DNA of 64,000 nucleotides from Thuidium tamariscinum (Eukaryota; Streptophyta; Bryopsida; Hypnales; Thuidiaceae), in the NCBI GenBank assembly GCA_947034885.2, contig OX344749.2, forward strand, positions 34,963,182 through 35,027,181. Reading direction: 5' to 3'. The number at the start of each line of letters is the position of its first letter. The first letter of the stretch is position 1. Made by a program: the position numbers and the translations under genes. Shown here one piece after another: positions 2,050 through 63,248 of this stretch. The notes beneath the pieces are model-generated. The model saw nothing but the letters and a program-made list of their open reading frames with translations. It made no database searches and was not told where the DNA came from.

Positions 2050-2073
2050 TTAGTAAAAAGAAAACTTGTTTTT

Positions 2074-9665: not shown

Positions 9666-9672
9666 CAGTGGG

Positions 9673-19965: not shown

Positions 19966-21777
19966 TTACAACAAAAATTAGTCTAAATTGACGGTTAGGG
20001 AATCTGTGAGGTGAGCAATCAGCTCATGTGCCCTTGTTAGATTTCCAATTAAATAAATATTAGAAAAAGATTTAAAATTTTGTTTTTGGAAAAAAAATTG
20101 AATTTTTAAATTTTTTCATCTAATGGCACATTCATTCAGCCCGCCACAAAGTCTACATTTTCTGTAATGATTATGGGATATTTCTAGAGTATGTTTTAGA
20201 CCCCATCAAGCTAATTAGTGATTTGGGGGTCTGTGATTGCAAATATGAATTCTGAATTTCCAAAAAAATAAAAAATTTCAGCATTCATCCATGTGGTAAA
20301 TCCAGCCCGATGGTCCCACTTCGTGGGATGGGTTTAAACGTCCCGCGATATGAAGTGTGAGGTATAAGATAAAAAAGATAGTTGAATTTAAGCTTGCAAA
20401 TGAAGGCTAAATTACATTTAATTGTATGTTAATTCAGCAGCCCCCACCCTCGTTGAGTGAATCTTTTAATTGATTGAAGCGATAAGCTGTGCACCACTGA
20501 GCCAATGAGCTTTGGCCACATCGGGAGCTCATGAACGGGACTTCAAAAAAATCTGCTGAAAATTTAATCTCACTGGCTTGCAGTAAGAAAATGATGCATG
20601 TAACAATGAAAGCTTTCACACAATTCAATGAAAGTAAACGTTATGTCTGAAACTGGGAGTTGAGGGCACCACAAACAAACCCAGCTCACATGTTGAATCC
20701 CCTGCGTACCTGTGTTGCTTCTCTGTCCAGCCCCTGGGGCTTGGCTTGGCTGTTGTTTCTGTGTTTTTTTCTTTGCAAAGAATTGCATTTGTTTCAAAAA
20801 AGAAAAGAAGAAAAAAAGAATCCCCGATGTGACAAAATGTTCACTGTGCATACATGGTCCCACATATGCATGCACTCGCACAAGTGGGTCAGTTGTACAT
20901 CAGTTTCAAATGCCTTTCATTGAATTCAAGGAAAATGCACTCCTGAATTTAAGTTACTTGATTGCTTTCGACTTCCTCTCAGAGCAAACATTTCTTATTT
21001 AGAGAACTCTGAACATTCCACTGTATATTTCTAGACCAGAAGTGCAGAAGGCAAGCACTCGATCGAGTTACACGTGAGTAACTTTCATCGAAGTAAATCA
21101 CCACGCTTTTGCAAGCTGGCATGGGTAGTTCAATGTATTCCAGGCTTAAGTAATTAACTTAACGCCAATTTCGTCAGTTTGGCGATATTGTGTTCACAAA
21201 GGACTAATTTCAGGTCTCAAACTGGGACAGGAGTATACATACAGAACAGGTACAGATTAGTTTCAGGCCGCGTGGCTGAACCGGACCAATGGACAATTTA
21301 ACGGAATTGACACTCGCCTATTTTCTTACACCAGTCTGTCAGTTTCACCGTTATACAAAAACCACTGCTTTATTTAAATGGATGAAACTCACGACCGCCT
21401 GTGGTACAACATGACACCACACAGTAACCAAGAGCAGTGACATCAATTTTCTGCCCTTGACGGCTGGGGAACATGCAAACGACGCGATCAGGATCCACCC
21501 AAAAACGGAAACAAAACCGGAAACAGCTCTGCACTCTAGCTGTCAACGTCCGGCCTCGATCATCCGATTTTTCGCAGTCACAACTGAAGCATCTGCTAAC
21601 ATACATATCACACGTTCACACAACTAGACATATACAAGTATATATCATCTAGATGTCAAATCTAGATACATCAATATGTATATCCTTCAGTTGACACAGT
21701 AATACTACCAGATGCCACATCTAGGCAAGTCATCTGGACACGATATCAGATAGACACATCGACATTATTCTGTACAT
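19966..21777. other. Lower-repeat region 3' of the HsbA-like gene
   Basis: This stretch is less repetitive than most of the window. Short open frames at 20,434-21,606 overlap on both strands and show no domain. 21,640-21,790 is rich in CTAGATGTCA / ATCTAGACAC-type words. Confidence 0.35.
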
Positions 21778-21780
21778 CTA

Positions 21781-24180
21781 GACCTGATATCTAGACACCT
21801 TGCTGATATAATCTAAACACAAGGTGGGGGGGGGGGAGAAAGTCTGTTCCACTTGCTTCAAGGTGATTCCGATACTCCTGAACTGGGCTTCTGCGGTGGG
21901 CTTCTGCGAGGGGAGGAGTTTCATCAAGCGGGACGCGAACGTATCCACCGACGCCTCCAACGTCGCCAGCGACACTCGGATGGGTTCAAGCAAGGTCACC
22001 AGCGTACGTGGTAATCCCGCGGTTGCCAATCAAGACGTTCAGCAACTCCTGCTGCGCTTGCAGAAACGTCGTCAGAGCCTCCTGCAGCAGGGAACCCGGC
22101 ATGCATTTCGTGACACGAAGGTTAGCTTCATAGCTAGCTAGATCAAGAAAAATTCTTAACATTCCTGAATAATTATGCAGAGAAGGGGTCATAGTGTCAG
22201 TGTCACGAGAAATATTCTGTTACAGATCTGGCCTACAAATCACGGTCAACATTGACTCGATTCAAGATTTTGAGATACGAAGGAAGCTAAGCGTCCCCTT
22301 CCTTGCTTGAAGTTCAAGAATGTTATGTTCTTAGAACTCTGTAGAATTTGTTACTTCAGAAAGTTGTGAGTATGGACTATATATGTCAGGTCTAAAAAGT
22401 ATTTGTTAAAGTGGTGGAACACAATCCCTGCCTACTTTGGGTGAAAGATTCTGTACAGTGACGTACAGGAGCCTTGATTCTTGGGAAACAAAGCGTCCCG
22501 GACTGCCTTGGAAGTTCAAGAGTGTCAGTAGTTCGTGGAACTATGGTCGATTAACTAAAAAAATGTGAGCATGGACCACACCTTCGCCAAAATAATTAAC
22601 AAAGTACATCCATGTATATTTGTGGAAGTAAAAGTTATGCAGAGGTTTTGCGATATTGCGGCAGAAACCAATGTTACTGACCTGGATGGCTTCCACTGGG
22701 GAATCTCCGTGCGGGGTGAGGGGAGTCTTCGACTCGTAGATCTTGATGGTTTTTTTGATTGATTCTTCGATAGTGTGGAACTGCTTTTTCGCATCTTCTT
22801 TTTGAGTTTGGAGCTGTTTGAGCAATGCGGTTTCGAAGGACTTAAACTCAGACTCCAGTTTCCGAAGCGACGCGATAATTGGCTCGAAGTACCTGCGGAG
22901 TGGGTGGATCTTGTGCTTGCCTTGCACCACGTGGATCAATGGCTGCCAGTGCTTCTGCAGTTCAGCCATACAACAACCTTACAGAATTAAGTCACTGTGC
23001 ACCAGTAGAATTAATTAATGGACTCCACTCACATACATACATAATCAACACGTACCTAGATTAATATCATGAGATGCCGACAAATTCAACATTGTTCGAG
23101 CTACAGCTATCTAGCTACATTTCAATGACAGATTGATGTCATTAAACCGCCACAAATGGTGCACTGCTACACAAGTAGCGACATACATGGCCGATACAGA
23201 ACCCAAGTGGAAATTGAAATACACTATTTAAACTGACGAGCTGACCTCGACGAATTTCGTCAGAGCTTCCACAACGAGCTTGTCGTCTTTGTCACTGAGA
23301 GGAGGGAGTTTGGAGATCGATATGGCTCTGGTCACTTCAGTGACCTTGGTGCCGATTGCGTCAAACCCACGAGGAATTAAGATTCCCTTAACGAGCGCAT
23401 TGCCCTCGTTGATGGTCTCGGTCTCTTTTCGGAGGTTGTCCGACGCGGTGGCGATTTCCTTGATCCCCTTCACAATTAGCTCTGCCCTGGGGCCGCCGTC
23501 GCCCTTCAAGCTAGGCTCCGCTGCGGTTATCTGGCAGAGCGCCAGCGATAGGAGGAGGACGGTGACGAAGGCCTTGGAGGTGGGCGCCATGTTGGATTGA
23601 AAGAGCTGAAGGGACCTGTCGAATCGCACATCCAAATCTCAAGGTTTCAGAAAAGCAGTCGGAAACCCGATGGAATTCAGCTTCATCAAATAGTCAATTA
23701 ATGAATAATGTGATATAACTTGCAACAATCACGAGGTATGATTGTGTACTGCTTAAAGGAATTGCGCAAAAGTCTCAAATTTTGCGTTTAAACAGTGAAT
23801 CGGTAGATGAGCTTGTGCACTAGCTAAGGAAGGGTAGCACAAGTCTGAGAACTTCAGAAAAACAGACGGGCATTGAACGCAGCTAAATCGACATCTAATC
23901 AGTGATCGAATGAGGTGACGTGATAAGGTTGCACAAGGCTGGACTGAACTTCAGAACTTCAACGGAAGGAGCATGAGTACAGGTCTCAATTTCGATTCAG
24001 AAAGACAGACGGTGAGCTAAACAAGTACTCAATAGCTAGAAAAATGTAACGCAGTAGCAAATCCTGCTCGGGAGCTCACGTGATCGATGGGGCTTACCTG
24101 TAGATCTGCAGTGAAAATCCTGTCCAGAGGTCAATGAGACTGATAAAGCTCGAGGGTGATGGACTGGGATCAGGATCTCG
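21781..24180 (-). CDS. Secreted HsbA-like (cell-wall mannoprotein-type) protein, spliced
   Basis: Coding exon 1 is 23590-23246: the ATG at 23590 opens a signal peptide (MAPTSKAFVTVLLLSLALC..ITAAEP) and an amphipathic helical region ending EALTKFVE, with donor GAG/GTCAG. Exon 2 is 22954-22682 (CTGCAG/AAG to CAG/GTCAGT), beginning KHWQPLIHVVQGKHK; both exons are phase 0. Exon 3 begins near 22081 (CTGCAG/GAG), repeats the exon-2 fold (EALTTFLQAQQELLNVLIGN) and runs to about 21781, but changes frame once near 22011. A TATA box lies at about 24217-24210 (CTATATAAA) and a 5'-UTR donor CAG/GTAAG at 24097, so a leader intron is likely. The helix pattern, about 170 residues after the signal peptide, resembles fungal HsbA (hydrophobic surface binding); family assignment is by eye. 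It is the only ordinary host gene I see, and may bind surfaces or lipids outside the cell. Splice sites are predicted. Confidence 0.6.
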
Positions 24181-40204: not shown

Positions 40205-40780
40205 AAAATAAAGAGTAGACTGCCCTTTTCTCTCCAGAGACAAAGAGAGAGGCTGCAATTTTAGGGCCTTTCGGTAGCTTCCTCGATTTACCCAGGATAG
40301 CCTCAGCCGGGTCAAAGCCCGCTTTCTTTGCTTCGCGAATGAAAAACTTTGGAGGACATGATACGTTTTCTGAAAATGAGGGCGGAAGATGGAAGACGCA
40401 TAGCGGGGTGCAAAGAATCGAACGCAAAGCGCTTTCTTGGAAAACTGGAATAAAGAGCAAAGACACTGAAAACAAAGTCTTTTTTACATTTTTTGTGTCC
40501 TTTTCTTTTCCAAACAAAAAATTCCTACGTGCACTAGAAAACTCATTTCGCTTGGCTCTCGGAGTATATGTAAGTAAGGCTATCCCTTACGGGATTCGAA
40601 CCCGTGTTCTCGCCATGAAAAGACGATGTCCTATACCCCTAGACGAAAGGTGTAAATGGACGAGTGGGCCACGTGGAAGCCAGGCCCTTCCATTCTCCCT
40701 CTCCCATTCAGGCATGGCAAGCCCGGTTGGCACTATCACACCACCCGGCCCTCCTCCCAAAGGTCCAAATGAGAAAAAAA
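40205..40780. other. Nuclear copy of mitochondrial DNA (NUMT)
   Basis: The segment is GC-richer than its surroundings and contains a plant-mitochondrial-type tRNA-Glu gene. The minus-strand open frame around 40,160-40,410 (KKAGFDPAEAILGKSRKLPK) looks like genuine organelle coding or spacer sequence, but I do not recognise the gene. Edges are set by the composition change only. Confidence 0.6.
40581..40653 (-). tRNA. trnE: Mitochondrial-type tRNA-Glu (UUC), nuclear copy
   Basis: The minus strand folds into a 73-nt cloverleaf. D arm GTCT/GGAC, anticodon stem TCGTC/GGCGA with loop TTTTCAT (anticodon TTC), and T arm ACGGG-TTCGAAT-CCCGT are intact. The 3' strand AAGGGAT plus A pairs with the 5' strand ACACCTT with two mismatches, so the acceptor stem has decayed. 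Without mitochondrial transcription it is probably silent. Confidence 0.85.
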
Positions 40781-45494: not shown

Positions 45495-46587
45495 TTAACC
45501 CCTTGAGTTTTTTGACTACATTTACTCCAAAAATTTATCAAAAGCACCCATTTCTAGTACCAATATCATTTTTTTCCTAAAAAACATTTTTTGAGAATTG
45601 TCACCAATGGTACTTGTAGTAAATTGGTTTGAAAACATGTGGAAAATATTTCAGAGTTTTTCGCCATGTATATTGAAAGATCACTATAACAAAAAGAAGG
45701 ATACAAATTCCTTGTCCACAATGACTACAAGGGCAATAATGACTGCAATATGATTGCAAAATGACGTTTTTGCAATCATTGTTGTCTATATTGTCATTGT
45801 GAACAAGTCATATATACTCTTGTTTCTTTGTAGTTAATGTTAGTGTTAGAATGCTTAGAAATAATTATTTTCACCCTTTAGAAAATAGGGCAGCTGCTCT
45901 TTAGCAGACAACAATCACATGAAAAATAGTTCAAAACAATTGTTCTTCTTTGGATTTGTCATTGAGGCTAAGTAGGATACTTGCTTAAAAAATTTCAAAT
46001 TATTTGGATTTGTACAACATATAGGAAAAAATAGTAAGTAGAAAGAAATAGCAAATGATTCAAAATACAAAATTGTCAAGAATTTATTCATGAAATTGAA
46101 AAATGAAAATCCCAATGGATGAAATGTCATAATGAATAATTTACATCCTATGAATTTTTTTTTTTGAAAAATATTGAAAATTATGTAAAACAAAAGACTT
46201 CAAAGTTCATTTTAGAATAGAGGATCCATAATTGCCCACAAACAAAAACTCCCCACAACTTTTAACTCATTGATCATAATGAAATGAATCAAAATTTTCT
46301 ACACATATATTAATAAAGAAAATCAATTTCAAATTTTTGATTTTGAAAAAAGAGATTTTTTCCAATATGTCTGAACTACCCATTTACAAAAAAAAGTAAC
46401 ATATTAGGCCATTATTTCTGACTTATAGTTCGAAATGTCTTGATTTTTAGTACACACGAAAGATATTTCTTGTCCCCAAATTCTATTAAAATTTGGGCTT
46501 GAAATATAGAAAATCCCACTCATATACATGTATCTGTTCAAAATGGCTATGTTGCCAAATTTAGTAAGCTCGTCTTTTAGGGGTTAT
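45495..46587 (+). mobile_element. TTAA-type MITE, copy F (diverged, with an insert)
   Basis: TTTAACCCCTTGAG at the left and CTTTTAGGGGTTAT at the right are eroded family ends. The body follows copy C in order. A palindromic insert of ~160 bp sits at 45,681-45,841 (CTTGTCCACAATGAC against GTCATTGTGAACAAG). It ends 25 bp before the left target repeat of the 16.6-kb transposon. Confidence 0.7.
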
Positions 46588-46611: not shown

Positions 46612-46624
46612 TACATGTTGACAC
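46612..46624 (+). repeat. Left target-site duplication, TACATGTTGACAC
   Basis: The identical 13 bases occur at 63236-63248, directly outside the opposite inverted end. Whether the first T belongs to the duplication or to the element end is ambiguous, so the length is 12 or 13 bp. Confidence 0.8.
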
Positions 46625-47159
46625 AACGACGCCAGCGTTCGAGCGTGGAGCGGTGAGCCTGTGAGCTGCGAGCGGGAAAGTTGTGAGCGGTGAGCATGAA
46701 GTAGCCTTTTTTTTAGGAATTTGGACTAGAATTTTTTTTCAATCAGTTTTTTTTCCAAAAAGCAACAAAAAATTACTATTTATAGTAAATTTTGCTACTT
46801 ATGACCATGTCTCCTATAACTGTGGATTTTCATGAAATGTCATATTTTTGGACCATTGATAACATCATTTGTACATTTAAGTTTTGGAATTTAGAGTCCG
46901 GAAGGGAGATTAAATGCAGGTCGAACACTTCAAATACAAAAGACTCGTGTGCCTTGTTTCAGGGTTTAGGGCTTTTTCAAAGTGAATAAAATGAAAATAG
47001 GCAACTTTTAAAACTGGATAGAAAAAGAAAGTTAGCATATATATCTATTGCAAAGAAAGTCAATGTTTGTGATTGTACTCCATCACTTTTTAATTTCATT
47101 TGCAGCGCATGGAGAATAATACAACATGAATGTACGACACTCCAAAGAACTAATCATGG

Positions 47160-50100
47160 CTACTTTGAAATAATGATGATCCCTGCTCGAACTAGGAGTA
47201 GCTTCAACTCATTAAAGCTATAACTAGGTGCATGAATGAATTTGTCATCATGAATATCCATCTTGCAGAAGTACCTATACAAATAATATAAGTGCTTACA
47301 ATTCACGTATTGTGCACGGCCTCCCACAGCAGATACTATCATATTCACAAAGTCAGGGCATGTGCATGTAGGGAAAGTACCCATAGTAACTCAATATACG
47401 TTTTCGTTGGACTCCACTCCAGTCTGCAACACCACTATTGCACCAAGTCCAGAAAGAGGTACGAGGGTCACTCCTAGAATTTCCCCTCTAATATTTGAAG
47501 CACTTTCCCATTTGTTGCGTTGCTCTACGGTTGGAGGATTTGCAAGTCTTTTGATTGTTCGGTTGTTCCTCACTGTGGGGTGCACATCTGCATTTGGTGG
47601 ACATGGTTGGGTAAAGAAGATAGGCTCAAAAATCTTAGACATGGCAAAAAGTTCACGTGGTGATAATGTAGGCCATTCTTGAAGACGGAAGCCTGCATGC
47701 TGTAACAATAAGGTTTCTTCACGATTCAAATTGGTCCCCGTTAGAATAGGCCAAACTTCAGGTAGCTCAGGCCTATCAATGACCCACTTTCTCTTTGTAC
47801 CTTTCACACACCGTTCAATGTCATCCCAACAAAACCAGAAATCCACGACCACCGGGCGCTTAGTTCCATACTCTTCTTTCCTACCGCGATAAGTAGGAGC
47901 AGGGGTTCCTTTTCCACCCTTGGCAATCCTTGAGGTACACTTGATGTTTGATGTCCGTTGTTGAGCCCAACATCTTGCATTTGATTTGTGGTTGATCCTG
48001 GCAATGTGCCACTTGGAGGTGTCACAATCGGTTTCACATGCTACTGTCACATAATTGGAGGTATTGACTTCATTGCGATTTCCAATGCCTTCCATTGAAT
48101 CTTCTGCAACCTTTGTAGACCTAGTTCGGACCCGCGGTTGCGAGAAGTTGACTTTGTCTGGTCTATGTGAATCTCCAGCATCACCAATAGGTACATCAAG
48201 CCTCCTCTTTGTGCTCCCAAAAATTTCTTCTCCTTCTAGATGAGGTACTCGAGTTCCTACACCATGTGCTTCTGGCAATGTATTCAACGCCTCAGCAATT
48301 TTTTTTGGACACCCACTGCGCCTAGCCGCCCTCAACCTCAATTCTCCCTTTGATGGTCCTGACCCACATGCATGTCCTCTAAGGTATGCTCGGTAGTTTG
48401 TCATTTGCATCCAAGCCCGAATACTGTCATCACAAGTAGCGTCGAATAAATTGTTTCCTTTTTTCCCCAACATTTGGAGCCACTTGTTATGGATTGTTTC
48501 CGACAGATTACAAAAAGGCATGTCTGTCATCTCTTCCAAAGTAAGACCCTAGAATTCCAACCATATGCAAACATGAATTAAAATACAATTCACTATTATT
48601 ATACAAATTATATCTCAAATTGCTCTCCATACTTCAAAGAATTTCAGTATGGCTTAGGGTTTAAGGGTTTAGGATCACAAAGAAGAAACATTTAGTATTA
48701 TATAAATTGCAGAATCTAAATATCTCATTTGAGAAAAAAAATTGGAAACCTAGTACCATCAACTAGTGCATCAATGGCAACCAATTTTGATGCAAGTAAC
48801 ATTATATTTTTCTAAAATTAACTAGGTTTGGGAATCCGTCGGATCCGACGGATTTTACATATAATATCACTTTATAGTACAGTAAAAATACTAAATGATT
48901 GAAACTTCAAGCAATTAATATTTCCATGTATGCCATATTGTAAAATTTATAAAAACATACTTATAGCCGTTGGATGCAACAACTGCTCATTGATTCCCTA
49001 TACTACTTTTTTTAGTAAACCTTTCAAATTTCTACTATAAATTATCTTTAAGAAAAATTTGGAATTATTTGTATTCTAATTTTTCATTACAAAGACATTA
49101 AAAGTTAAAAGAATCATTTCCTCTATAATTGAAGTGAACAATTGTCTAATTAAATAAGAATACAAAATATAATTTTGAAACCAAAATAAGATTCACATAA
49201 CATTGTCATGAAGCCTCCCCACTGTAAATACCGAAAATGTCAAAATGCCAAAATGCCAACCAATGCTCCAAGTGATGAAGTGAGTCTTCCGTTGTAGCTC
49301 CAGATGATAACCACCATGACCGAATTGCAAGATAGTGCACCTCTGCTTCATCCAAAGTCTTGGATTCTTTGTACTGCTTACATAGTGCAATGTGTTGATG
49401 TTGTAATCCTTGCTTGATGTGTTTCTGGGTGTGCTTCTGAAGAGAATTACTCCAATGTAGTAGGCATGTTTTCTCACGATTCTTCATAATGTCATTTGCG
49501 GAGCCACTGCCATACACAATGCGAACTGCATTCCAATTGGCCATTGCGCTATCTGCCATAAATCCTTTAAAATTTGGCTTAGTCACTCCGTGCTTCTCCA
49601 TTATAGCATTCAGTGACCTCCAGAACTATACTTGAATCTCTGTATCTTCTGATTGCATATCGCACACTGCAATGGTCATGACCTTCTTGTACTGAGAGTC
49701 GTACACGTGGCATGCCATGGTGGTCCAGTCCTTCACGCGCTTCACGTGGTCGAACATCATCCACGCATTCTGTAGATCACCTTCAGGTTGCATGCGCCTT
49801 ACCAAGTCCACTTCACTTCCAGGCCCTTCAGTGAGCATTTTGAAGATGTAAACCTTCTCTTTGCCTTGGCCTGGGAAGACACTGTCGTGTATGAATTCGA
49901 ACTTCGATTCCTTCTTCATAGTCATAATGTTGTCAATGACCCCTCCTTGGTTGTTTGAGTGGAATGAGGAGATGATATTCCGTATACTGGGACTACTTAA
50001 AAACTGGAAGCGATCCATAACCTCTTCCATTTCCTCTCCCTTCAATATCTTCTTCTCTCCTTCTCCATGGTGAAAAAGATGGTTTGTAAGGAAGTCCTTG

Positions 50101-51367
50101 CTAGCGGATAAGGCTATGGTAGAGTTTGTAGCTGAAGGGGTTTTAGCAACTTGATTTGCAATGAGTTCAGTAATTTCTTTTGCAGAATCTCTATACATGC
50201 CTTTTGCTACTGGGTGAGAGTGATTTCCTAGGTGAATAGCAGCCCTAGTCATATTTGGGTTATCACTGTAGCAATAGTAAATTCTAGCATCACAGGTGAT
50301 GAGGCATGTAGGTATTGTTTTGCAGACTTTACAAACTAGTTTGCAATCTTTTGGTGGAATGACTCCTACTGCAAAAGGAAGTATTGTAGAACCTGTCCAT
50401 TCTATTTCATTTTTCCTAGAAGTCCTAGACAAGTACTCGCACCTAGGATTTTCACAGATAAGATGGCCAACGCAGAAGGACTTACGAAACTTCAGATTGT
50501 CCGAGTTGTTGATGTTTGTTGTCACTAGCTTACACCACCCGTGTCCATCGTATCGCTTGTCCATTCCCTCCAAGTTCTTAGTTGCAGACGAAGAAGAAGA
50601 GGTCCGCCCTAGTGGTAGTTCAAAGATGGCATCTCCATTGTAAGAAGGTGGTAGAAACTCTACTTGGTGGTGCTTCACAACAATCATGTCTAATGTTGAC
50701 AGTTCATTTCTTGAACGGTGAAGACCAGAAAGTCTCTTCAAACATTTCATTATACTAGTTGCACTTGTTAGGCTATGATGACAAACTTCTTGTGAGAAGG
50801 TATGTTGGTGAGAAGTACTAGTGGAGGTACTATGTACGGAGTATGTAGCTTTCATATCATGGGACTTTTTTTAACTGAAGAAGGGTTAGGGTCAAGATTC
50901 AAGGAAGGGGACAAGCCTTCCGACTCACTAGACAACTCTACAATAGTCCCTAACAACTCTACCTTAACCTCAACACACATTTCATTTTGCGCAAATGTTG
51001 GAAAGGATCCTATAGGAATAGTGGGATTAGCATTTTGAAGTCCAGAAGGTCTATTCACAGTAGAATTATCGGATTGACGGCTTGCTATCTCAGTGGAAGA
51101 AGCTAATATAGATAAAGGGAGACCATAAGCCCTGTAGTTCCCGAGACCTAGATACCAACAGTGCCCTTCATCAGAGAGACATTTTGAAAGCGGGATTGAT
51201 TGAAGTAATTCACCAGACTCAGAACGACGCTCTTCCTCAACGTAGATAGACGACTCTACAAACTTGAATCGAACATGAAGCAAGTGGCTAAATACAGTAG
51301 CACGACCTTCTAGGTCTAAAGGAAATACTAAAGGAACCTCATGACCATCTACCCGAACGCTTGCCAT
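47160..51367 (-). CDS. Mutator-like transposase with GCM/WRKY-like zinc region and SWIM finger (damaged)
   Basis: Segments, in order: 51367-50852 N-terminal part, starting MASVRVDG; 50855-49206 zinc region (CKVCKTIPTCLITC then NMTRAAIHLGNHSHPV) and DDE core, D in HVYDSQYKKVMTIAVCD, D in GFMADSAMANWNAV, CxxH in CLLHWSNSL, probable E in DEAEVHYLAIRSWW; 48551-47387 a long domain opening GLTLEEMTDMPFCNLSETIH after acceptor TTCTAG; 47384-47160 a SWIM finger, CTCPDF...NCKH. Cut-and-paste of the whole element is the expected role. Damage: a one-base frame change at an A7 run (~50,866), an in-frame TAG at ~49,624, an 8-bp tandem repeat that shifts frame near 49,228, and an in-frame TGA at ~47,395 just before the SWIM finger. 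The intron at ~48,552-49,200 has no phase-matching donor that I can see. The domain order is clear; exact splicing is not. Confidence 0.7.
48833..48854. promoter_or_regulatory. Palindromic site CCGTCGGATCCGACGG, copy 1
   Basis: A perfect 22-bp palindrome with the 16-bp core shown, centred on GGATCC, lies in the presumed intron of the transposase gene. The same core recurs at 60780-60803. Confidence 0.6.
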
Positions 51368-51829
51368 ATTTCTCACAATCTAGTGTAACATAGAAGTGAA
51401 GGTAGAAATGGCCTCAGAGAGTTAAATAGAGAACCTATGGTCTCATATAGTATTCTCCAAGCATCATTAATTTTTTGGGAATAATGGCGGAAAGGACAAT
51501 ATAGCTTTGGAATTTAACACTGACAACGTGTACAATTGAGAAACTATAAAGGTATGCCCCCATTCCAAAAATGACAATCATATTAGAATAAGTGAATAGA
51601 TACAATCTTGTATTATCATTATTATGGTACAATTAGTTGTATAGCAGATAATTCTTTAAGTACTAATTAGACTTTTAATTATAGCATTCTCTCATATTCT
51701 TAGAAGTTTAGGGTATTAAATATTTTGGTAATTGTGATTGTAGCGTACAACATGATTATTATCTTGGCGACTCACTTGAAACGGCTCCAAAATCTCTCAT
51801 TGAGAATGCAAATCTGTACTTCTACTGAC

Positions 51830-52018
51830 ATTGGCGGCACTGTCTCATGAAGGCGCCTCGGGCAATGAAATTTTAAGAATTTCTGGTAGTGCCGGCGTTG
51901 TGTCACAAAGGTACCTCGGGCAACGCTATTTTTTGAATAACTGTCAGTGCCGGCATACAGTTCACAAAGATGCCTCGGGTACTACTACTTTTTAAATTCC
52001 TGGAAGTTCCGGCGCCGA
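51830..52018. repeat. ~58-bp tandem repeat, three units, between the divergent genes
   Basis: CCTCGGG occurs at 51856, 51914 and 51973. Each unit has the order GTGCCGGC, TCACAAAGG, CCTCGGGYAAYG, then an AT-rich part. It lies upstream of the transposase ATG, so it could hold regulatory or transposase-binding sites (inference). Confidence 0.75.
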
Positions 52019-52071
52019 AATAATAAAGCCATATGACACGCATGAAGTGCACAGGCAGAGTAACATAGAAG

Positions 52072-52080
52072 AGTATATAG
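52072..52080 (-). promoter_or_regulatory. Possible TATA box for the transposase gene
   Basis: On the minus strand the sequence is CCTCTATATACTCTTC, ~700 bp upstream of the ATG at 51367. The leader would be long or spliced. Confidence 0.35.
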
Positions 52081-52291
52081 AGGACTCTTAGAAGAGAAGG
52101 ATTCATTTTACTGTAATGTTTGGATTGTAGTTGTGATTTCTATATAGAGTAGAGGAAGTTTCTTCTTCCATGTGCACATGATTATAGAATGTTCCAGTTC
52201 ACTATCTTTCATTTCTGAAAAGCGAAGTAAGAGGCATAGGAGACATACTTCTTTCTTTTATTCTTCTAGAAGAGCTTTAAGGAGAGCTAAG

Positions 52292-52502
52292 ATGGGTCGC
52301 GCAAAGAGGACATTGTCAAAGAGAGGTCGTGGTGAATCAAGTCAATCACAGAATTTCTCTCTATGTTGAGAGAGAGGGAGGCGACAATTTGGCAAGTGCT
52401 GGGGGCCAGAACTCAGGTCCTATGCAGGAGTACTCTAAGGAGAAGCATGCTGAGGATGAAGCCACAGAATCACAAGACACATCCAACATAAGTCTGTCCT
52501 AA
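52292..52502 (+). pseudogene. Short relic resembling the start of the rightward gene
   Basis: ATG at 52292 gives MGRAKRTLSKRGRGESSQSQ; in the next frame from about 52368 the sequence reads acidic, hydrophilic text (GGDNLASAGGQNSGPMQEYS) to a stop at ~52,502. The basic-then-acidic style and the QNSGP segment recall the N-terminus of the gene at 53571 (MVRATRSRARVSGARDGEDA). It may be a duplicated, decayed first exon. Similarity is by eye and weak. Confidence 0.25.
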
Positions 52503-53570
52503 GCATCTTTGAAGTCATTTTCTTTCCTAGTAGTTAGAATTATAAATAGTGAATCAATTTTGTGTATAACAGATCACTCAAAATGAATGAAATTGTCTTT
52601 GAGATTTTCAAAAATTAGAGATATTGATTAGGATGCAATAATAGAAGGTCGAGATAGAGGAACCACTCCTATGTATGATGTGATTTTTTAGCTTCAAAGA
52701 ATGAACTGCGTCATGTTTTCATTTTCAAATTTGAGAGCAATACATGAATTTTGCTTACAGTGACAATAGAGATAGGCATCACCTAGATTTTATAATCCTC
52801 ACAAAGTTTGACTTCCGACTCAAGCTTTCTTGTCCTTTGTAGATTTTCAAAATCTTTGAGAGATATTAACAAAAAATGCTTTATGAAGGGGAAAAATGCT
52901 AATGATTTCCAAGATTGACTTATCAAATCCAACAAATCTACCAAAAATGCAAGGTTGTAAAATGCATTATTTGCTGTTAACTCAAAGACTTGGGATTTTT
53001 GAATACACTTTCTAAAAGGAGCTAATATCTTGAAGTTCACCCTAAATCCAATGCATAGGAATTCAATGTAGAGTTAGACAATTCAAAACCTCAGAGTATG
53101 TTCATAGAACTTTCTCCATGAGGTACAGAGGCCTGGAAATGATTAGCACCTTCAGTCCTTGGTCTGGAAATGATTACTAAATTCAAATTCAAATGTAATG
53201 AAGAATAACACTCGCCAAACTGGATCAGACCTGGTAGAAGGAGAATCGACCTGGTAATTGAGAAGTCTCCGCTCCGTAACTCGGCCAGTTGGCTACCTTT
53301 CGGTGGGGCCGTGAAATCCTGAACTACTTGGTTACTTTACAGTTGCTGCCAGGTTGACTTCCGTAATCCAGGCAAATTAGCATCTCGGGGAAATTGGCGC
53401 ACTTTGAACATTCTCTTTTCCTCCCCGTAACGTAGGAAGGAATATTGTGTCAGTCTTGGTAGCCACAACCTGCATGGCCTCCATTTCGAAGCTTATCATT
53501 TTACAACAAACCAGGTGTAGCGTGGGAGTTTCAGAGTGTGATCTCGTTAGTACTTTCAAATCTTGTGCAA
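52503..53570. other. Spacer upstream of the rightward gene
   Basis: No gene seen. The last ~400 bp are less AT-rich than the rest and presumably hold the promoter of the gene starting at 53571; no clear TATA box is seen. Confidence 0.4.
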
Positions 53571-56500
53571 ATGGTGAGGGCGACGCGTAGCCGAGCGAGA
53601 GTTTCTGGAGCTCGTGATGGAGAGGACGCTCAGCATCAGGTACTAGTTTCTGAATTTCTCGAAGCCGTCATGACCTACACATGAAATTTTCTTCTCTTTT
53701 CCTTTCCGAACTAGCTAGAGTGCGCATTGCAAACTGGGAAGATCACAGTCGCACGCTTCGTAGGAGCTTCTGTACGTTTCCGAGAACTTTGATTCAGTAG
53801 ACTTCAGTGAATTCGCTCTGTCGCACCACCAGTTCCAGGTTGTATTGACTGCGTCACTGAAGATTTCATGGCTTACTGCCAACACGCCATCCGGATGTGG
53901 ATGCAGTCTGAGCGCGCCTCAAGTAAGACGTACGCGCGGTTTTAGAGCGTCCCTGATTGTCACATTTTGGATCCATTTTTTTTTCTTCACGCTAGACGCG
54001 CCACCACGGACGCGTCACCACGCATGGGCGCGTTAGTCACCACGGGCGCGTCAGCACCTCGCGGCACCTCACATGGTGACGCGCCACCACCTCGGGCGCG
54101 TCACCACGTACTGGGCGCGTTAGTCACCACGGGCGCGCAAGCACCTTGCGGCACCTCACGTGGTGACGTGCCACCACGGACGCGTCACCACGTGATGGGC
54201 GCATCAGTCACCACGGGTGCGTTAGTCGCCACTGGGCGCGTCAGTCACCACGGGACCCGCTGGGATGAGAATTTGGACAGGAGTCTCATAGGACAGATCA
54301 ATTCCGGTAGTCAATGCCAAATGGTAAGCCATATACACTTCAAGGTTGGAGATTCTGAATCCGCAACAAACTCCCTGACTTCGGGTGATTTTGATTTCCG
54401 CACCTCATGAAAAAAAAAACGGGATTTTTGCGGGTACCACGAGCCCCGCCGAAAAATCAAGTCGGACCCGACTTGATTTTTCGGTGGGGCTCGTGGTACC
54501 CTCAAAAATCCCGAAATTTTCAACTTACATATAGTACGTCAATTCCAACGTTCTCTGCATCTGTCAGCGGTGTTTTCTCAAGACTCGTTGTAGTAAGGTT
54601 TCATGAAGAATGTCTGTGTTTTTGGTATTAATTGAGTCGCAAAGTTTTTTGTAAGCTTCGATTCGTTGCCCGCGGGGAATCCAGGAGAGGAGGCGTTGGA
54701 CTCCAGAGTTATCATGAAGATCTAGATTGCTGGACTTGAAATCACCGCAGCACGATCGATCTCGAAGGCTGCTCATATTATCATGTGCGACATGAAGACT
54801 GAGAACTCCCTAGTGCTTGCGCGAGCTGCCTGCTCTTTTCCCAATTTGCGTGTTTGATTCATTGCAGGGAAGGAGTTCGTGGGGTACCACGAGGCACCCC
54901 ACAAAATCAAGTCGGACCCGACTTGAATTTGTCGAATGGCTCGTGGTACCCCCGAACTCTTTCACTTTTCCGTACCGTAGATCCAATTCCAAAAGTACTC
55001 TTGTTTTTTTTTATGTAATTGCAACTTATTCTTGGCAGAGATTTGACTTCGAAGAACACTCCAGGTGGAACAGAAGTGTTGCCTTCAGCTAAGAGCACCC
55101 AAAGTTTTGATTTTTTTATGAAATGCTGATGTCTTGGGTTGATTTTGTGTTGCATAATGCTAGGATTGGTAATGATTCATTAAATTGTTCGTATTATTTG
55201 GGTACCACGAGCTTCTTCATAAAAGCCCGTCGGACCCGACTTAATTTTCTCTCTCAGCTCGTACTACTCTCAAACGCTGTCCTTCTTTTGAATCCTGCTT
55301 GTTTCTTATGAATCAAGTACTACGCAGTGTTTGACTTTGTTGGCACTTTATGATTGGTTTTTTGAAAAAGTTCTTTTTTCTTTGAAGACCTCATGTGGTT
55401 GCACGTTTTGCACCATTTATGTTTGTCACTAATTGTATATTTTTTATTCTAATGGGTTTAGTCCAAATGATTGAATCATTTATTCCATTGAAATTTTCAT
55501 AGAGGTGGTACTTACCTTATATGTTTTGTTCAGGCTACTGCTGAAGCTACTAGTGTTGGTGAGGGTAGTGAACAATCGAATCAATGGGTATGCAAACCAT
55601 AACCCCTAAAAGTTTTTGTAATAATGTCTTATTTTCCTCATTGTTTTATTATCTTTAATTGTATTTCTTTTGGTGATGCAATTGGAAACTTGACTTTGCC
55701 ATTGAACATAGAGTTTTCTTCTTCATTATTCAGGTTGGTAAAGGAAGGGGCAAGCGTCAGAAGGTGTCATCTTCAGGGCCCCAAAATCCTACAGAGCAGA
55801 GTGGCCATGCAATGGAGCTCGGTGGACCCTCAAAGAAGGCAGAAGTTGGTGTCTCTTTTTCCACGGACCAGAGTGATCCAGACCTCAATTTGGTGAGTTT
55901 TGATGACGTCCTTGATGCTGCAGAGCGTGCCGTTGACGCATTTGAGCATAGTGTACTCAATGGTACTAGGAGAGATGGCCCATGGTTTTCATCCTTTAGT
56001 GAAGAGATGGAGTACCCCACAGACATGGAGCTGTCAAACTCTAGCAGTGTTGAATTCTTAGAGCTGTACAGTGGGGAGAGCGTTGTGAATATGGACTTAT
56101 TTCAGTCTGACGAAATCATCATCCTTTCGTCAGAGTCTGATGAAGACATTCAAATTTTAGATTAGATAGAGTTCTAATCTCAAAACCATCATATATGATA
56201 TCAGGATTTCTACTCACTAAGGGGTTCTTTTTTGGTAGTTGTGCTGGACGCCTCATTTGCAAGTACCATTTTCTTCTTGAAGTAAAGGTTTATATTTTGA
56301 CCATATCATCCATTTTGTTGCAATTCTTGGTGCTTTTATTCTCTACAAACTTGTCGCTTATTGTAATTGATATTGTATTCCTAGATGGATATTTCACCTG
56401 CCCAAAACACGATCGAAGCAACTATCTTCGAAACTCCAGACTCTCGAAACATAAGGCAGCCACAGATTGAAGAGGGAGTAGATGAACAAGATCAGGGAGA

Positions 56501-59500
56501 AGGAGATGAAGACATGGAAGTAGTCATTCATGATCATGAGGAAGAGAAGTTGATGACGGAAGCAGAACTCCGCCAAATTCAGAAAGGAGATGTAGTGAAC
56601 ATACTTGCACAACTGCGGATGAAGCCCGAAGACTCATTTCGTTTGCACATTCCATTGTGTAGGCTTGTTGCAATGCCAATGGTGAGACCGGCTTTGGCTT
56701 CTGATATAGCAAAGCTAGAGCAAGACTTTGCTGGTGGAGGGTACATGGATGGAGCTGTAGTATTCTACTTATCAGCTACCAATGAGGAAGGAAACACTGA
56801 AGAATTCACAGAGGAGGAGATGAACAACTCGGATCCTATCTAGCAGGAGAAGAACCGAATCTTCTGTCAGAAGTTGGAGGAAATTCCAGAGCGCAAGTTC
56901 TTGAAGAACTTGAAGTTTTTCATCTGCGATGGGAACCATCGCCGTGGTGCATGGATGAATTTCATTTCGAAGCATGGCAGGTGGCACTGCAATGTGGACT
57001 CCATCATCTTGGATACGAAAGGGAAGAATGAGCTTGTCATGCAGGTTATACATCACATTAATAAGTAAGGGTTCTATTATATCTTGTTTTTATTTTCAAA
57101 GGCATTATCTCCTTCAATTCTGTCCTTGTTTCAAGATTTTCAAGATCCTTGTTCTAATACAAACCTTTATTGTCTTCTAGGTCAGTTGAAGATTCTCATG
57201 TGAAGACGAACTTGGTACACACCTTGTACCAAGTTCAAAAGTATGGAATGTTACCAATCAATAAGTTCGCGGCTTTGCTTAGGCCTGCTGAAAGGAAGAG
57301 GTGTCTGGAGAATAAGGTCACAAAGAAATGGTATTCCGTTCAGCCCGAGGTCTTCACATCGTTCATCTTCAGGGTAAGCTCATTCAAATAATTATGAAAA
57401 AGTGTATTTTTGGCTTCCAAAATGTATAATTATGGGTGTCATTTTCTAATTATCCGTGGTGCTTTTGTAGCAAGGAATATCACAAGCTACAGATACTGCT
57501 GTGAGAAGGTACATGGAGGCTACACAAGAGACACAAAATAAACCAGTTGAGGCAGCTAAAGCAATGAGGATTGGAGCAAGGGAACGCACGAAAACTGTCA
57601 TGGTGAAGATGTTTAAATTGCTTGCGGAGCCAACCCAGCGAATGGAGTGGACTTTCTTACAGAGGTATATTAATTTGACATCTTTGTGTTTGCCTTTTTT
57701 TTTGGCTCTAAAATCAATCTCACACTCTTAAAAAATGCTTCTCATCTTTTTGTAGGTGGAAAAGCATTGGGGCAACTTTGAGGTGCCTGAAATGACCTTG
57801 GAAAAGCTCCAGTTGGTGGCTACGTGCAAAATGACAGGCACACACAAAACAAAGATCTTGAAATGGTGGAACTCTTCTTCACTTTCTCATGAAGCACGGA
57901 AGTTGCCCCCAAAACCAGTGTCAGAGAATCTCCTCCCTCAGTTTCTGGTCAAATGCACTTGGTATGCCAGGGTAAGTGTCAAATTACTTAATATTATGTG
58001 TTTGTGTACATTGAAGTACATTGAAGGATTATTTTATCAGTAGGACCCATTTGATGCAATTTAGTACCAATGGATCATATGTTTATTGACTTACTATGAA
58101 AAGGGGTATTTTTTTATAAGATCATAGTTACTTTGTGGTCATGATGTTTGTACCATAAAATAGTAGGTACTTTTAGGCATTGAAGTCCTAAGTACAAGAA
58201 AGGAAGTTTTTGAATTGAAAATCTTAAAAATACTTCATAAGATAATTACAAAGTATAACAAAGAATTTTGAATTAGCCTATCAATTTTGAATAATTAGGC
58301 CATTCAATAAATAAATGTGCATATCAATTATTTGGGGCCTATTTGACATTCAAATTTTCTGTAATAATTGAAGTGGACATTAACCCCTAAAGGACCACAA
58401 CTATATTTTCATCAAAACTGCTCCAAAATTGTCATTTCTAGGGCAGCTACCAAATTTCAGAAAAAAACATTTTTTGACATATGTAACCACAGGATCTTTT
58501 AGTGCACTAGTTTGGGAAGATGTAGAAAAAATTTCAGAAATTTCCACCTTGTAGATTGCAAGATATTAGTGTTTGAAGTTACAAAAATCATTTTTTTTCC
58601 ACTGCGAAAATCCGGGCAGCTGCACTTCAGAAGGCCACATTTGTATGAAAAAATGTTCAAAATGGTTGCGACTCTTTGGATTCATTCCCCAATTCAAGTT
58701 GGATACATGCTTGAAATTTTCATATCATTTGGAATTGTACAACATGTACCAAAAAAATAGTAAGTAGAAAGAAGTAGAGAATGATTCAAAATACAAAAAT
58801 GGTAACAATTTATTTATTGAATTAAAAAATGCCAATCTCAATGGTTCAAATGTTGTAATAAACAACCTACAGCCAATGTTTTTATTTTTTTTCAAAAATA
58901 TTGAAAATTGAGTGAAATAAAGGACTTCAAAGTTCATTTTAGAGAAGAGAATCCATAACTACCCGCAAACTAAAATTCTTCATAACTTTTGATTCATTAA
59001 TCCAAATGGAATGATTCAAAGCTTTCTATGTATGTATGAATCTCTAAAACCAATTTCAAATTTTTATTTCCAAAAAAAGTGATTATTTTTTATCTGCCCA
59101 AACTGCCCGAATTGAGAAACGAACAACATTTTATGCAATAACTTTTCAACCATGTAGTCAAAAGTCACAAAAATTGTTGGGCTTTGAAGACACTCCTCGT
59201 CTACACCTTCTATTAAAGTTTGGTTCCAAAATATGGAAATCTCTAGCCACACGTACTTGCCCAAAATTGTTATGTTGCCAAAAAAGGCATATTGGTCCTT
59301 TAGGGGTTAATGAAATATTGCTTGCATCAATTCTACCTCAATGTTGTAAATGTAGAAATTCCTTCATACTGAGAGTGTGGTACATGTTTCAGATAGAGGA
59401 TGCTTTAGTAAAATTCTTCAACAAAATTGTAAAGGAAGACAACCTTTCCATCAACTACAACACCCAACCAGCACCAGAGCGACTGCTGGAGTACATAGAA

Positions 59501-62411
59501 GGATGGAGGCAGAAGATTTGGGAACATGGCTTCATGAATTACTTCAAGGGGCAGAAGTACTTCAAGAAGGGGCAAACTTTTTCATCTTACGAAGGCTCTA
59601 CTGCTGTGGTGCGCAGAGTCCTTTATCGGTATGTAATTTTCTTTGCTACTTGAAATTTTGTAACATCATCATGTAGTTTGTAATTATAGAAATTCTATAG
59701 CATCTTGTCATTTTTTATATACCTAAAATTTGTATTGTATTGGCCACTTTTCTAGATTCAATGGAATGTAGTACAACTTCTACATAATATTATGTTCTTT
59801 CTCTTTCATTTTCGTGATGAAAAATGATTTGTATAACTCATTCGTGTTGAATTGCAGGTATTTCAAGTTAGAACTTGAAGCAAAGGGGGCCATTGCCAAA
59901 TTGGACCTTCCTCAATTCCTTTCAGGGTTCCTCGACCGCAACTCACCTTCATGCATGTTTAGCCCACATCAGTTGCGCACTTATACTACTGCTCATCTCT
60001 CTAGTGCGGGCTGGTACTTGGACTGTACATTGGACTTCACTCATAATTCGGAGGTTGAGCTCAGGGCATCATTGGAGGGCAAGGGGATCATAGATTTGGA
60101 GGCTGTTGACGAGTTCATGGACTTGGACGGCGATGCCAAGAAGAAGGCCATCAACAAGAGGGATGCAGTGGACCGAAAGAAAGAAGTGAAGAATCAACTC
60201 ATTGTGGAGGCCAAGGAGAAAAAGCAGGCGGAGAAATCAGCAAAGAAGGCGGAGAAAGAGGCAGAGAAGGCGGAGAAAGAAGCAGAGAAGGAGAAGGAAG
60301 AAAAGACCAAGACCAAAGGCAAGAAGAAGGTGGAAGAGCAAGGGCAGGTATTGACTTCCTCCACTGTGGATCAAACAGGGCAAACACAAGGCGGAATACC
60401 AAGGAAAGTGACCATCTCACAGCTCACCGAAGATGTCATTTCGCGAGTCACACAAGCCATGGTCCTCAGTGATGATGATGTTCCAAAGACTGAGGATTTA
60501 ATTCTTAATGTTTGCATTGAGGACGTTTCCGTGGATATGGAGGAAAAAAGACAGGGCGCCTATGATGATGTCTTGAACTACTTGGTTAAGGTAATCTCTT
60601 CAAACGTCTTTGCTTAAATTTTGTGGTACTATTGTCAATGACATGGATGCTATCATTACTATGTTCGTAGGTGGCTACAAAAATACATTGAAGTGAAATT
60701 TCTCTATGGTCTACAAATGCAGTTTCTACTTATAGATTGCTATATTTTAAAATTAGTAAAACAATAAGGTAGAGCTTACAATTCCGTCGGATCCGACGGA
60801 ATTAAATATACTGTTTTTTGGTTCTTTCTTTCCCTTTCAACAATTTTCCACGTTCCTATGGTTTTGTTTTCTCTAGAAATAGTAGGTCATATCACCAAAT
60901 ATATTTTCTATTTTGATTGAGCTTCTTAAAGAAATGAGCAAATAATTGTAAATGTTATACTAAATGTTATGAATTTGCATTCAAAAACAGAAAACTATGC
61001 AATACTAATATATTGAAATTCTATTGAATTATGCTTTTGCAGATGGCAGTGGGCAAAACTCACATGTTTGAAGGTGTGGCAAATGCAAGAGCTGGAGTTG
61101 ATGTCATCTTTATTGACTGCCCAGAGAACTTGCCTGTGCCAGGAATCTCTCTCACGTCAAAGGAGGTGCCCAACTGGAATGCAGATTTAGATGCTAACAC
61201 TTTGCAATCCGCATGCACCTTTGCAGTGGAACATCTTCATAATGATGGTTGCATCATCGTGTTTCACTCGTTTAGCATTGCATCTAGGGAAGATCTGGCA
61301 GGAGTTTGCGAGGCATTCGACTTCAAAAAGAAGAAGGACTGGCTAGGCATGAACCGCATGCATCTCACCTCACCAATGGACACCACAAAGACGGTATATT
61401 CAATTCAACCCCTTAAGCTTTTGTCACCTAATTTTTTTTAATATCATTCATTTCTCTCTAATGTTCTTGTGTTGTATATGTTGCAGACACAGAAGTTTGG
61501 AGTCACTCTCCTTGTGAAGGACCTCAAATCAAATGGCGAATCCAAATTTGCCTTCAAGCGTACTCAGATGATGAAGAAGGCTGGGGTGGATGTCGAGAAT
61601 GATGACATGCTCATGAATTATATGCATGCAGACAACATCTCCATGAATGGGAAGAAGCCATGGAGAGGCCCATATGAAAAAGACCCGAGGTTCTTCACTC
61701 TCCTCCTTGAAGCCACAAGCAATGAAGGCAATGTCATTGTGGACTGCACGGCATCCACAGGTGTGTCTTGAATTTGAATAGTTTTCAATTCTATGTCATT
61801 CTTACAATTTTGTCATCTCTCTGACACAATTTCATTACATGAATGCTATAGGTGCTTGCATTACGGCTTGTAGAGGAACTGGACGCAACATTTTAGCTCT
61901 TGAGGGGGACAAAGACGTTTTCAATGCCATTTTGAAGCCCATGAAGAAGTCATCAACATCAGTGGCAGTGGCTCCAACCCCGGAGACAACAGTGGACTTG
62001 ACAATGGATGTACAGGACGTGCCTATTGTTCCTTGCAAGTTTGTTCGCAAGGGAAAATCCAGTAAGTAAGTGGAAACTTCTTTCATTCTTTATTATTTTT
62101 CTTCATATTACATTTGCAAAGACTAATATAATGTCTTCAATTTTTGCAGAGGTTGTGGATTGATCTTAAGAGAGGTCATGGAACAAAATCAAAGGCTTGT
62201 TGTTAGTCCAGAGAAGCCTTTCGAGCTACCACCTTATGCTGAGCAGATGGCAAGTGCCTTTGCAAATTTTGGTTGTTCCAAATCAAAACGACGCAAAGAC
62301 ACTTACGCCCTCAATGTCTTACAGTTTATAGATGCTTCTGCATCTGAGGGACGGGAGTCCTCAGAGTCCTCTACAGGGTCAGATTCAATGACTGAGTCCA
62401 CAACCACTTAG
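53571..62411 (+). CDS. ParB/Srx-like - coiled coil - DNA methyltransferase-like protein, multi-exon (damaged)
   Basis: Leader exons 53571-53639, 55534-55587 and 55734-55892 (all phase 0) can splice to 56385-57064; then 57181-57373, 57471-57664, 57756-57971, 59393-59628, 59858-60590, 61043-61393, 61487-61760, 61852-62061 and 62152-62411, about 1,200 residues. All introns are GT-AG. The 56.4-57.7 kb exons encode a ParB/sulfiredoxin-type domain (FFICDGNHRRGAWM). 59.9-60.6 kb holds a Lys/Glu coiled coil. 61.0-62.0 kb has the beta-class layout of N6/N4 methylases: DVIFIDCPENLP at the motif IV (DPPY) position, and NVIVDCTASTG...NILALEGD at motif I. The changed DPPY and FxGxG residues suggest weak or lost catalysis. 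Defects: an in-frame TAG at 56841 and a one-base phase mismatch between exons 57471 and 57756. Fold calls are by motif; a phage-like ParB-methylase origin is inference. Confidence 0.65.
53997..54255. repeat. CpG-rich minisatellite, ~85-bp unit x 3, in intron 1
   Basis: Units start with GCGCCACCACGGACGCGTCA or variants at about 53998, 54081 and 54168, and are built from GTCACCACGGGCGCG-type words. This is the GC-richest stretch of the window. The open frame across it is a product of the repeat. Confidence 0.8.
54420..54513. promoter_or_regulatory. Hairpin site 1: 46-bp arms around GTCGGACCCGAC
   Basis: The arms at 54420-54465 and 54468-54513 differ at two of 46 positions, with a two-base centre. 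Landmarks: GGGTACCACGAG outside and AAATCAAGTCGG inside. It lies in intron 1 of the rightward gene. Confidence 0.8.
54872..54958. promoter_or_regulatory. Hairpin site 2, same layout
   Basis: GAGTTCGTGGGGTACCACGAG-like outer arms, and a perfect inner AAGTCGGACCCGACTT with flanking TCAA/TTGA. The middle of the arms is more diverged than in site 1. Confidence 0.75.
55199..55275. promoter_or_regulatory. Hairpin site 3, degenerate
   Basis: GGGTACCACGAGC and GCTCGTACTACTC outer arms with GTCGGACCCGACTTAATTTT in the centre. It is clearly the same repeat as sites 1 and 2 but eroded. Centres are spaced ~450 and ~320 bp. Confidence 0.65.
55893..56165 (+). CDS. Alternative 3' exon encoding an acidic tail with a SUMO-interaction-like motif
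   Basis: If the donor TTG/GTGAGT at 55892 is not used, exon 55734 reads on for ~90 residues to the TAG at 56163, giving a 184-residue basic-then-acidic protein with the three leader exons. The tail ends DEIIILSSESDEDIQIL, a good hydrophobic-core-plus-acidic SUMO-interaction motif. The sustained frame and amphipathic SFDDVLDAAERAVDAFEHSV segment suggest real coding use. It may be a separate small protein or a splice form. Confidence 0.45.
   Translation: MSFDDVLDAAERAVDAFEHSVLNGTRRDGPWFSSFSEEMEYPTDMELSNSSSVEFLELYSGESVVNMDLFQSDEIIILSSESDEDIQILD
58380..59310 (+). mobile_element. TTAA-type MITE, copy D (complete), inside an intron
   Basis: TTAA at 58380-58383 with CCCCTAAAGGACCA, and TGGTCCTTTAGGGG with TTAA at 59307-59310; 931 bp. 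It lies between the exons at 57756-57971 and 59393-59628, only 82 bp before the latter, so it arrived after the transposon. Confidence 0.9.
60780..60803. promoter_or_regulatory. Palindromic site CCGTCGGATCCGACGG, copy 2
   Basis: A perfect 24-bp palindrome (AATT + the 16-bp core + AATT) in the intron between exons 59858-60590 and 61043-61393. Confidence 0.7.
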
Positions 62412-62640
62412 ATTCTTGAGATTGACTAATCTCTTGAATCTTACTATTGTGTATTATTTGGATTGGATTTGAATTGGATTTGTGTGTTTTATGGCTACTT
62501 CTGGAAGTCTCAAATTTCTCTTTCTATTTATTAGATTTTTGTTTTGAAAACATCTAAGGCAATGGCTCTTGCTAGTTCTCCCAAAACCTACACCAAAAAT
62601 AATAAATAAATAAATTTTGAGGCAAGAAGGCAACACGTAC

Positions 62641-62660
62641 AATTCCGTCAGATCTGACAA
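62641..62660. promoter_or_regulatory. Palindromic site, degenerate copy 3
   Basis: ATTCCGTCAGATCTGACAAA, 230 bp after the stop of the rightward gene, keeps the palindrome with compensating changes in both halves (TCAGATCTGA). Confidence 0.45.
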
Positions 62661-63180
62661 ACCCTTACATATTGACCATCCAATTCTTTCTCTTCATTAT
62701 ACATCTCAAAATCAATCTTCTTTCAACAACATCTAGATTGACTTATTTAGTGAATGAGTTGCATCAAATTAGAGTATTTCAAATTGATGCCTTTTGTGAT
62801 TTCAAGGTTTGGGTATTTATGAGATGTCCTTTTCTGTTTTCATTTTGCCTTCACATTCCTTAATTTATCTCTATATAAAAAAGATTTAATATTCTAAATT
62901 ACAGCTAATCGACAATATAACCCTAAGTGCTTTGGTTCTCACAATTAGATTTTATATCCCTACTCTTGTGTATACAATGTCCATGATCATAGGTGTATGC
63001 AAAGAGAAAATGAAGAAGAAAACAAAAAGTGACTTCTGTAGTCACATCTTTGAAATAGACATCATATCTTCTTCGTCGCCTAAACGTTGAAAGTCCACGA
63101 TCATAGGTACTAAACTCTAATTTCTGTCACCCTAAAATCCACGATCATAGGTAGTCAACTCAAATTTTTTTCAAAATAAA

Positions 63181-63235
63181 TTTCCTGCTCACAAGCTCAC
63201 AGGTTCCTGCTCCCCCGCTCGCCTGCTAGCAACCC
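63181..63235. repeat. Right terminal inverted repeat of the 16.6-kb transposon
   Basis: Reversed, it starts GGGTTGCTAGCAGGCGAGCG and contains CCTGTGAGCTTGTGAGC. It pairs with 46625-46679. Confidence 0.75.
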
Positions 63236-63248
63236 TACATGTTGACAC
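63236..63248 (+). repeat. Right target-site duplication, TACATGTTGACAC
   Basis: Identical to 46612-46624. Confidence 0.8.

Follow-up and report, generated by a model that had tools for sequence, protein, structure and literature searches.

Extra genes beside the transposase are known from Mutator-like elements (MULEs), among them mudrB, VANB and VANC (PMC6446971). The VANC21 protein, encoded by a VANDAL element of Arabidopsis, is described as binding a short motif in non-coding parts of its own element, namely introns, intergenic DNA and terminal regions (PMC5735166), and this binding is reported to be accompanied by loss of DNA methylation (PMC5735166; PMC10398659). A ParB-CTPase fold fused to an N6_N4 methylase has been described in phages by a survey that, for eukaryotes, names sulfiredoxin as the most common member of this fold (PMC12704722). 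The locus analysed here lies in a 64,000-nucleotide stretch of Thuidium tamariscinum DNA (contig OX344749.2, positions 34,963,182 to 35,027,181; the whole stretch is called the window and is numbered from its first base). The window contains a 16.6-kb transposon-like unit (46612-63248) with two large divergent genes that contain introns, a transposase-like gene A and a gene B that ends in a DNA-methylase-like domain, and with a family of palindromes whose core is GTCGGAYCCGAC. The unit is real, and this copy of it is dead, since both genes are damaged by in-frame stops and frame changes. We tentatively read it as a decayed, autonomous-type MULE-like transposon, whose methylase-related accessory protein had lost catalysis and bound the element's own GTCGGAYCCGAC palindromes in a VANC-like manner. 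An earlier note on this DNA had proposed a transposon carrying a ParB/methylase-like gene; the palindrome family, the damage to both genes and a small element nested in gene B are new.

The unit is similar to the VANDAL/VANC system in being a DNA transposon with accessory gene(s) and in having short motifs that recur in introns and intergenic DNA, as far as that system is described in PMC5735166. VANDALs, however, are characterised as MULEs without terminal inverted repeats (PMC13317346), whereas this unit has inverted ends, and gene B has a methylase-like part, whereas none is mentioned in the account of VANC drawn on here (PMC5735166). With the mudrA/mudrB elements of maize, as outlined in PMC6446971, the unit shares an extra open reading frame beside the transposase, inverted ends and a direct repeat. 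In the open-access literature, judged mostly from listings, we recognised no published case of a plant DNA transposon that carries a methylase-like or ParB-like gene.

The edges of the unit are defined by the following features.

46612-46624, no strand: left direct repeat TACATGTTGACAC, 13 bp, identical to 63236-63248; target-site duplication
63236-63248, no strand: right direct repeat TACATGTTGACAC, the 13-bp copy of the left one
46631-46682, plus strand: left inverted end, GC-rich, aligned with the reverse complement of 63178-63230
63178-63230, minus strand: right inverted end, aligned with 46631-46682

The direct repeat, noted earlier as 12-13 bp, is exact over 13 bp. When 51-bp boxes of the window were paired at random, none of 5000 pairs had 13 bp or more in common; in a separate sample, 5 of 1493 box pairs had at least 11 bp in common (longest 21). 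The inverted ends are in register, 18-19 bases inward of the unit edges on both sides, and their core is identical in 36 of 45 columns, 3 of the columns being gaps. The survey set comprised 360 pairs of left-maximal exact direct repeats (12 bp or longer, separated by 1-40 kb, without low-complexity strings). Ranked by inverted-end score the 46612/63248 pair was second, after the pair 464/3764, which is enclosed in a large inverted repeat with arms at 2-809 and 3432-4239. The score of 42 was reached by none of 5000 mononucleotide and none of 5000 dinucleotide shuffles. A cruder null, with random 200-bp pairs and other scoring, matched the ends in 48 of 1000 cases; it includes AT-rich DNA and genuine repeats and takes no account of register. 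The matching ends of the earlier note are upheld by these results, as is its single transposon-like unit in which a transposase-like and a methylase-like gene diverge. The inverted subterminal repeats that it also described are not, as the score beyond the ends was 25, equalled by 137 of 500 random pairs and not above chance. At the right end of the unit GATCATAGGT is present three times, always as direct copies.

It is improbable that the ends match by coincidence and that nested repeats make up the unit as a patchwork, in which genes A and B would stem from different elements. Such a history would fit the TTAA-flanked element nested at 58380-59310, which has relatives elsewhere in the window, the GC-rich tandem repeats in mid-unit and the single copy. 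The rank of the edge pair among the 360 and the absence of an equal score in each set of 5000 shuffles argue against it, as does the restriction of the palindrome family to the unit.

Gene A was assembled from open reading frames and DNA.

47163-51368, minus strand: gene A, transposase-like, in pieces 51368-50855, 50870-49209 and 48548-47163

Its reading frame changes near 50860 and is interrupted by stops near 49628 and 47391. At the C-terminal end a CxCx(n)CxH pattern can be seen by eye, for which the match to Pfam SWIM reached 8.4 bits (cut-off 19.6), and the middle piece has stretches that we take to be typical of MULE transposases. A PDB search with gene A gave nothing to E 10, and the structure model of the middle piece had a predicted local distance difference test score (pLDDT) of 32.7, too low for use. 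By motif alone gene A is likely, though unproved, to be a transposase. The 'Mutator-like transposase' of the earlier note therefore stands as transposase-like by motif, and no Pfam transposase was reached. Stretches reading LSSES with a hydrophobic lead were observed in the N-terminal part of gene A (IVELSSES, 51379-50855, minus strand) and in an exon upstream of gene B (IIILSSES, 55734-56165, plus strand); presumably these resemble SUMO-interacting motifs.

The exons of gene B were picked by hand from open frames and GT-AG sites.

56385-62411, plus strand: gene B, 10 exons (56385-57064, 57181-57373, 57471-57664, 57756-57971, 59393-59628, 59858-60590, 61043-61393, 61487-61760, 61852-62065, 62150-62411)
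55534-56165, plus strand: candidate 5' exons of gene B (55534-55587; 55734 to 55892 or 56165), with splice sites; the join to the exon at 56385 is tentative
61043-62065, plus strand: DNA-methylase-like domain of gene B, from PHROG, PDB and NCBIfam matches and an alignment

All nine introns were chosen as GT-AG and the frame is kept across eight of them, which marks gene B as a eukaryotic gene. Long open pieces for both genes, together with this exon chain, bear out the two large divergent genes described previously. Across about 1,100 codons gene B has one in-frame stop (56841) and one frame change (57664/57756 junction). One of its introns contains the small nested element (58380-59310), which is unrelated to gene B and has inverted ends of TTAA plus CCCCTAAAGG; relatives are found within 1-4364 and at about 45528-46586, the latter just outside the left edge of the unit. 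The TTAA ends recall, in our assumption, piggyBac-type elements.

The C-terminal part of gene B matched a methyltransferase in PHROG (E 5.2e-5) and DpnA in PDB (E 0.0099), and the methylase part matched a Lactococcus phage methylase in tblastn (E 0.1, 92% of the query covered). The matches to Pfam N6_N4_Mtase (14.7 bits, cut-off 26.7) and NCBIfam CcrM (E 0.0071, 15.3 bits, cut-off 830) were below the cut-offs. In an alignment with three phage enzymes the methylase part was 27% identical to the methylases of the Lactococcus phages LW81 and AM9. The beta-class methylases DpnA, LW81 and AM9 and gene B align collinearly, with a motif IV-like sequence (DCPEN in gene B) before a motif I-like one (DCTASTG). 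Homology of the gene B end to the beta-class DNA methylases, though distant, is thus supported, and with it the methylase-like domain claimed for the second gene.

Beta-class methylases have a catalytic (D/N/S)PP(Y/F) sequence in motif IV and a glycine-rich S-adenosylmethionine-binding motif, motif I. In the alignment neither is present in gene B (DCPE, DCTASTG), where the domain moreover belongs to a long gene with introns. All three phage enzymes have DPPYN as motif IV, and gene B has DCPEN; motif I is DPFMGSG in two of them and DLFGGSG in the third, compared with DCTASTG; and the HPTxKP box is HPTQKP in two and HPTMKP in the third, compared with GPYEKD. Since only two disruptions are seen in the coding region, these substitutions probably predate the death of the gene. 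With motif IV, motif I and the HPTxKP box all substituted, self-marking by gene B methylation, which the earlier note had put forward, appears unlikely. The corresponding full reading, an active ParB-methylase that marks the element DNA by N6 or N4 methylation, is very improbable: the methylase homology and the ParB-methylase fusions reported from phages (PMC12704722) are in its favour, but the catalytic and cofactor motifs are substituted and the ParB profile did no better on gene B than on shuffles.

The ParB/Srx half of the proposed fusion was based on a short DGNHRR motif in gene B, around which a 14-residue stretch resembles box II (GxxR). To build a profile, 13 ParB-like N-terminal domains of phage proteins were chosen among 50 listed records. 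The profile gave the 226-residue gene B exon 0.4 bits, rank 289 of the 1546 sequences reported, the others being shuffles of the exon (2000 made), and hhalign matched 14 columns of the profile and no more. Pfam gave no ParB match for gene B, the sole PDB match of the 56385 exon was an uncharacterised protein (E 0.3), and the best phage tblastn match of the ParB-like part had E 0.4. The single-sequence structure model of the 56385 exon (pLDDT 36.6) was too low for use. In scans with a few 8-residue patterns, which reach close relatives only, the methylase part had no confirmed relative in viral contigs or prokaryotic genomes; viral contigs likewise gave none for the DGNHRR part or for two pieces of gene A. 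What gene B has in common with the phage fusions, as these are presented in PMC12704722, is the proposed domain pairing and the one stretch like box II; the ParB profile did not rise above shuffles, and Pfam gave no match. Of the ParB-methylase fusion the methylase half is retained and the ParB half is not, although gene B may conceivably hold a very divergent ParB/Srx fold.

The palindrome family with core GTCGGAYCCGAC, perfect over up to 24 bp, and the CpG-rich centre of the unit comprise the following.

48833-48854, no strand: 22-bp perfect palindrome AATCCGTCGGATCCGACGGATT, in a non-coding gap inside gene A
54413-54520, no strand: long palindrome 1, core GTCGGACCCGAC, 53-nt arms, 91% complementary; RNA fold -86.5 kcal/mol
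54867-54966, no strand: long palindrome 2, same core GTCGGACCCGAC; RNA fold -65.6 kcal/mol
55190-55280, no strand: degraded palindrome 3, same core GTCGGACCCGAC; RNA fold -20
60780-60803, no strand: perfect palindrome AATTCCGTCGGATCCGACGGAATT of 24 bp, inside an intron of gene B; the window's longest perfect palindrome
62647-62658, no strand: variant palindrome GTCAGATCTGAC, downstream of gene B
53500-54999, no strand: CpG-rich block between the genes, CpG observed/expected 1.05-1.16, undepleted

Allowing up to two mismatches, the core GTCGGACCCGAC was found at five sites (48838, 54461, 54911, 55229 and 60786; 10 strand matches in 64 kb), all inside the unit and none in modelled exons. Shuffled sequences had a mean of 0.62 strand matches, and none of 100 reached 10. 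The palindrome at 48833 ties for second longest in the window with an A/T-only palindrome at 1880. When all perfect palindromes of at least 12 bp are counted, whatever their composition, the unit shows no enrichment: it holds 9 of the 75 and makes up 26% of the length. The special feature is the family with the GC-containing core, not palindromes in general. The unit also has palindromes at 52169 and 50288, which lack the core and are unrelated. An 18-bp palindrome was also seen in two viral contigs (55% GC), its site being within one stretch common to them, and was taken as chance.

The three long palindromes are located between the genes and have the outer arm GGGTACCACGAG in common. No shuffle out of 200 was as stable as palindrome 1 or palindrome 2, and 3 of 200 were as stable as palindrome 3. 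The flanks of palindromes 1 and 2 differ between the copies, yet are self-complementary within each, which simple duplication of one site does not explain. The palindromes could serve a partner other than the gene B protein, namely the gene A transposase or a host factor, or could yield hairpin transcripts from which small RNAs are made; gene B would then be unrelated to them. This is unlikely, in our judgement. It would agree with the fold stability of two of the three long palindromes and with their differing but self-complementary flanks. The sites at 48833 and 60780, however, are only 22-24 bp long and share little beyond the 12-bp core (11 of 12 bases); because these short sites have so little else in common with the long ones, a protein site is favoured.

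The layout of the genes and palindromes also bears on a further explanation, that gene B is an accidental capture of a gene from the host or from another element, and that it took no part in transposition or in silencing. MULEs and other plant elements are well known to pick up host sequence (PMC6446971; PMC13317346), and one copy was seen here, with both genes broken. Gene B, however, is long, multi-exonic and divergent from gene A rather than a short fragment, and one palindrome family occupies the gaps of both genes. Capture is, on this evidence, rather doubtful.

According to the reading tentatively put forward here, gene A would have encoded a transposase acting on the element ends, and gene B an accessory protein with a C-terminal part related to prokaryotic beta-class methylases and presumably devoid of catalysis. 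The gene B protein may have bound, as a dimer, to the putative GTCGGAYCCGAC palindrome sites in the element's own non-coding DNA, and this binding could have kept the element expressed or unmethylated, by analogy with the Arabidopsis VANDAL factor VANC. The accessory-protein model agrees with the palindrome family and its non-coding placement, with the altered catalytic motifs and with the CpG-rich centre; CpG observed/expected is 0.46 in the modelled exons of the unit, 0.71 in other unit DNA and 0.49 in the whole window. An anti-silencing role, which the earlier note had named as the other option, is possible, and the palindromes in non-coding DNA would make it more concrete. A more specific version, considered unlikely, is that a prokaryote-type methylase was turned into a dead self-recognition protein that binds parS-like palindromes in introns and promoter, an anti-silencing system independent of VANC.

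Several observations weigh against this VANC-like reading. The palindromes are few (five or six) and scattered, whereas VANC motifs are described as dense tandem arrays of the same orientation (PMC5735166). The 13-bp duplication is longer than the 8-11 bp given for MULEs (PMC6446971), the inverted ends are short for MULEs, and no Pfam transposase or MULE match was obtained for gene A up to E 5; the 13-bp repeat could conceivably be a shorter duplication plus chance matches. One copy of the element was seen in the 64-kb window, where the tested pieces of genes A and B had no second match at E 1 or better besides the unit. The outer arms GGGTACCACGAG are not needed by a dimer site alone, the CpG-rich block holds GC-rich tandem repeats (54000-54258) that are possibly a young insertion, and the model of the 5' exons of gene B near the central palindromes is tentative.

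The window as a whole (GC 0.354) reads as plant-like eukaryotic sequence with intron-containing genes. The Rfam and tRNA scans revealed a single tRNA-Glu (TTC) outside the unit, at 40578-40654, minus strand, and nothing else; bacterial records have stretches that match it at about 81-83%, and it is possibly organelle-derived DNA in nuclear sequence. Tandem repeats are present as diverged units of about 219 bp at 13797-15185 and as a 65-bp repeat at 9670-9868, with copies 94-96% alike. The stretch 20000-24000 has raised GC (0.435), a CpG observed/expected of 0.78 and minus-strand open frames at 22541-23638, and is perhaps a host gene.

If the VANC-like reading is true, the unit would represent a second such system, built from a methylase fold and with sites that can be read in the sequence, which would mean that anti-silencing factors arose more than once and would provide a testable protein-site pair. 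It would also mean that a plant-type genome retained a bacterial-type beta-class methylase that lacked its catalytic residues.

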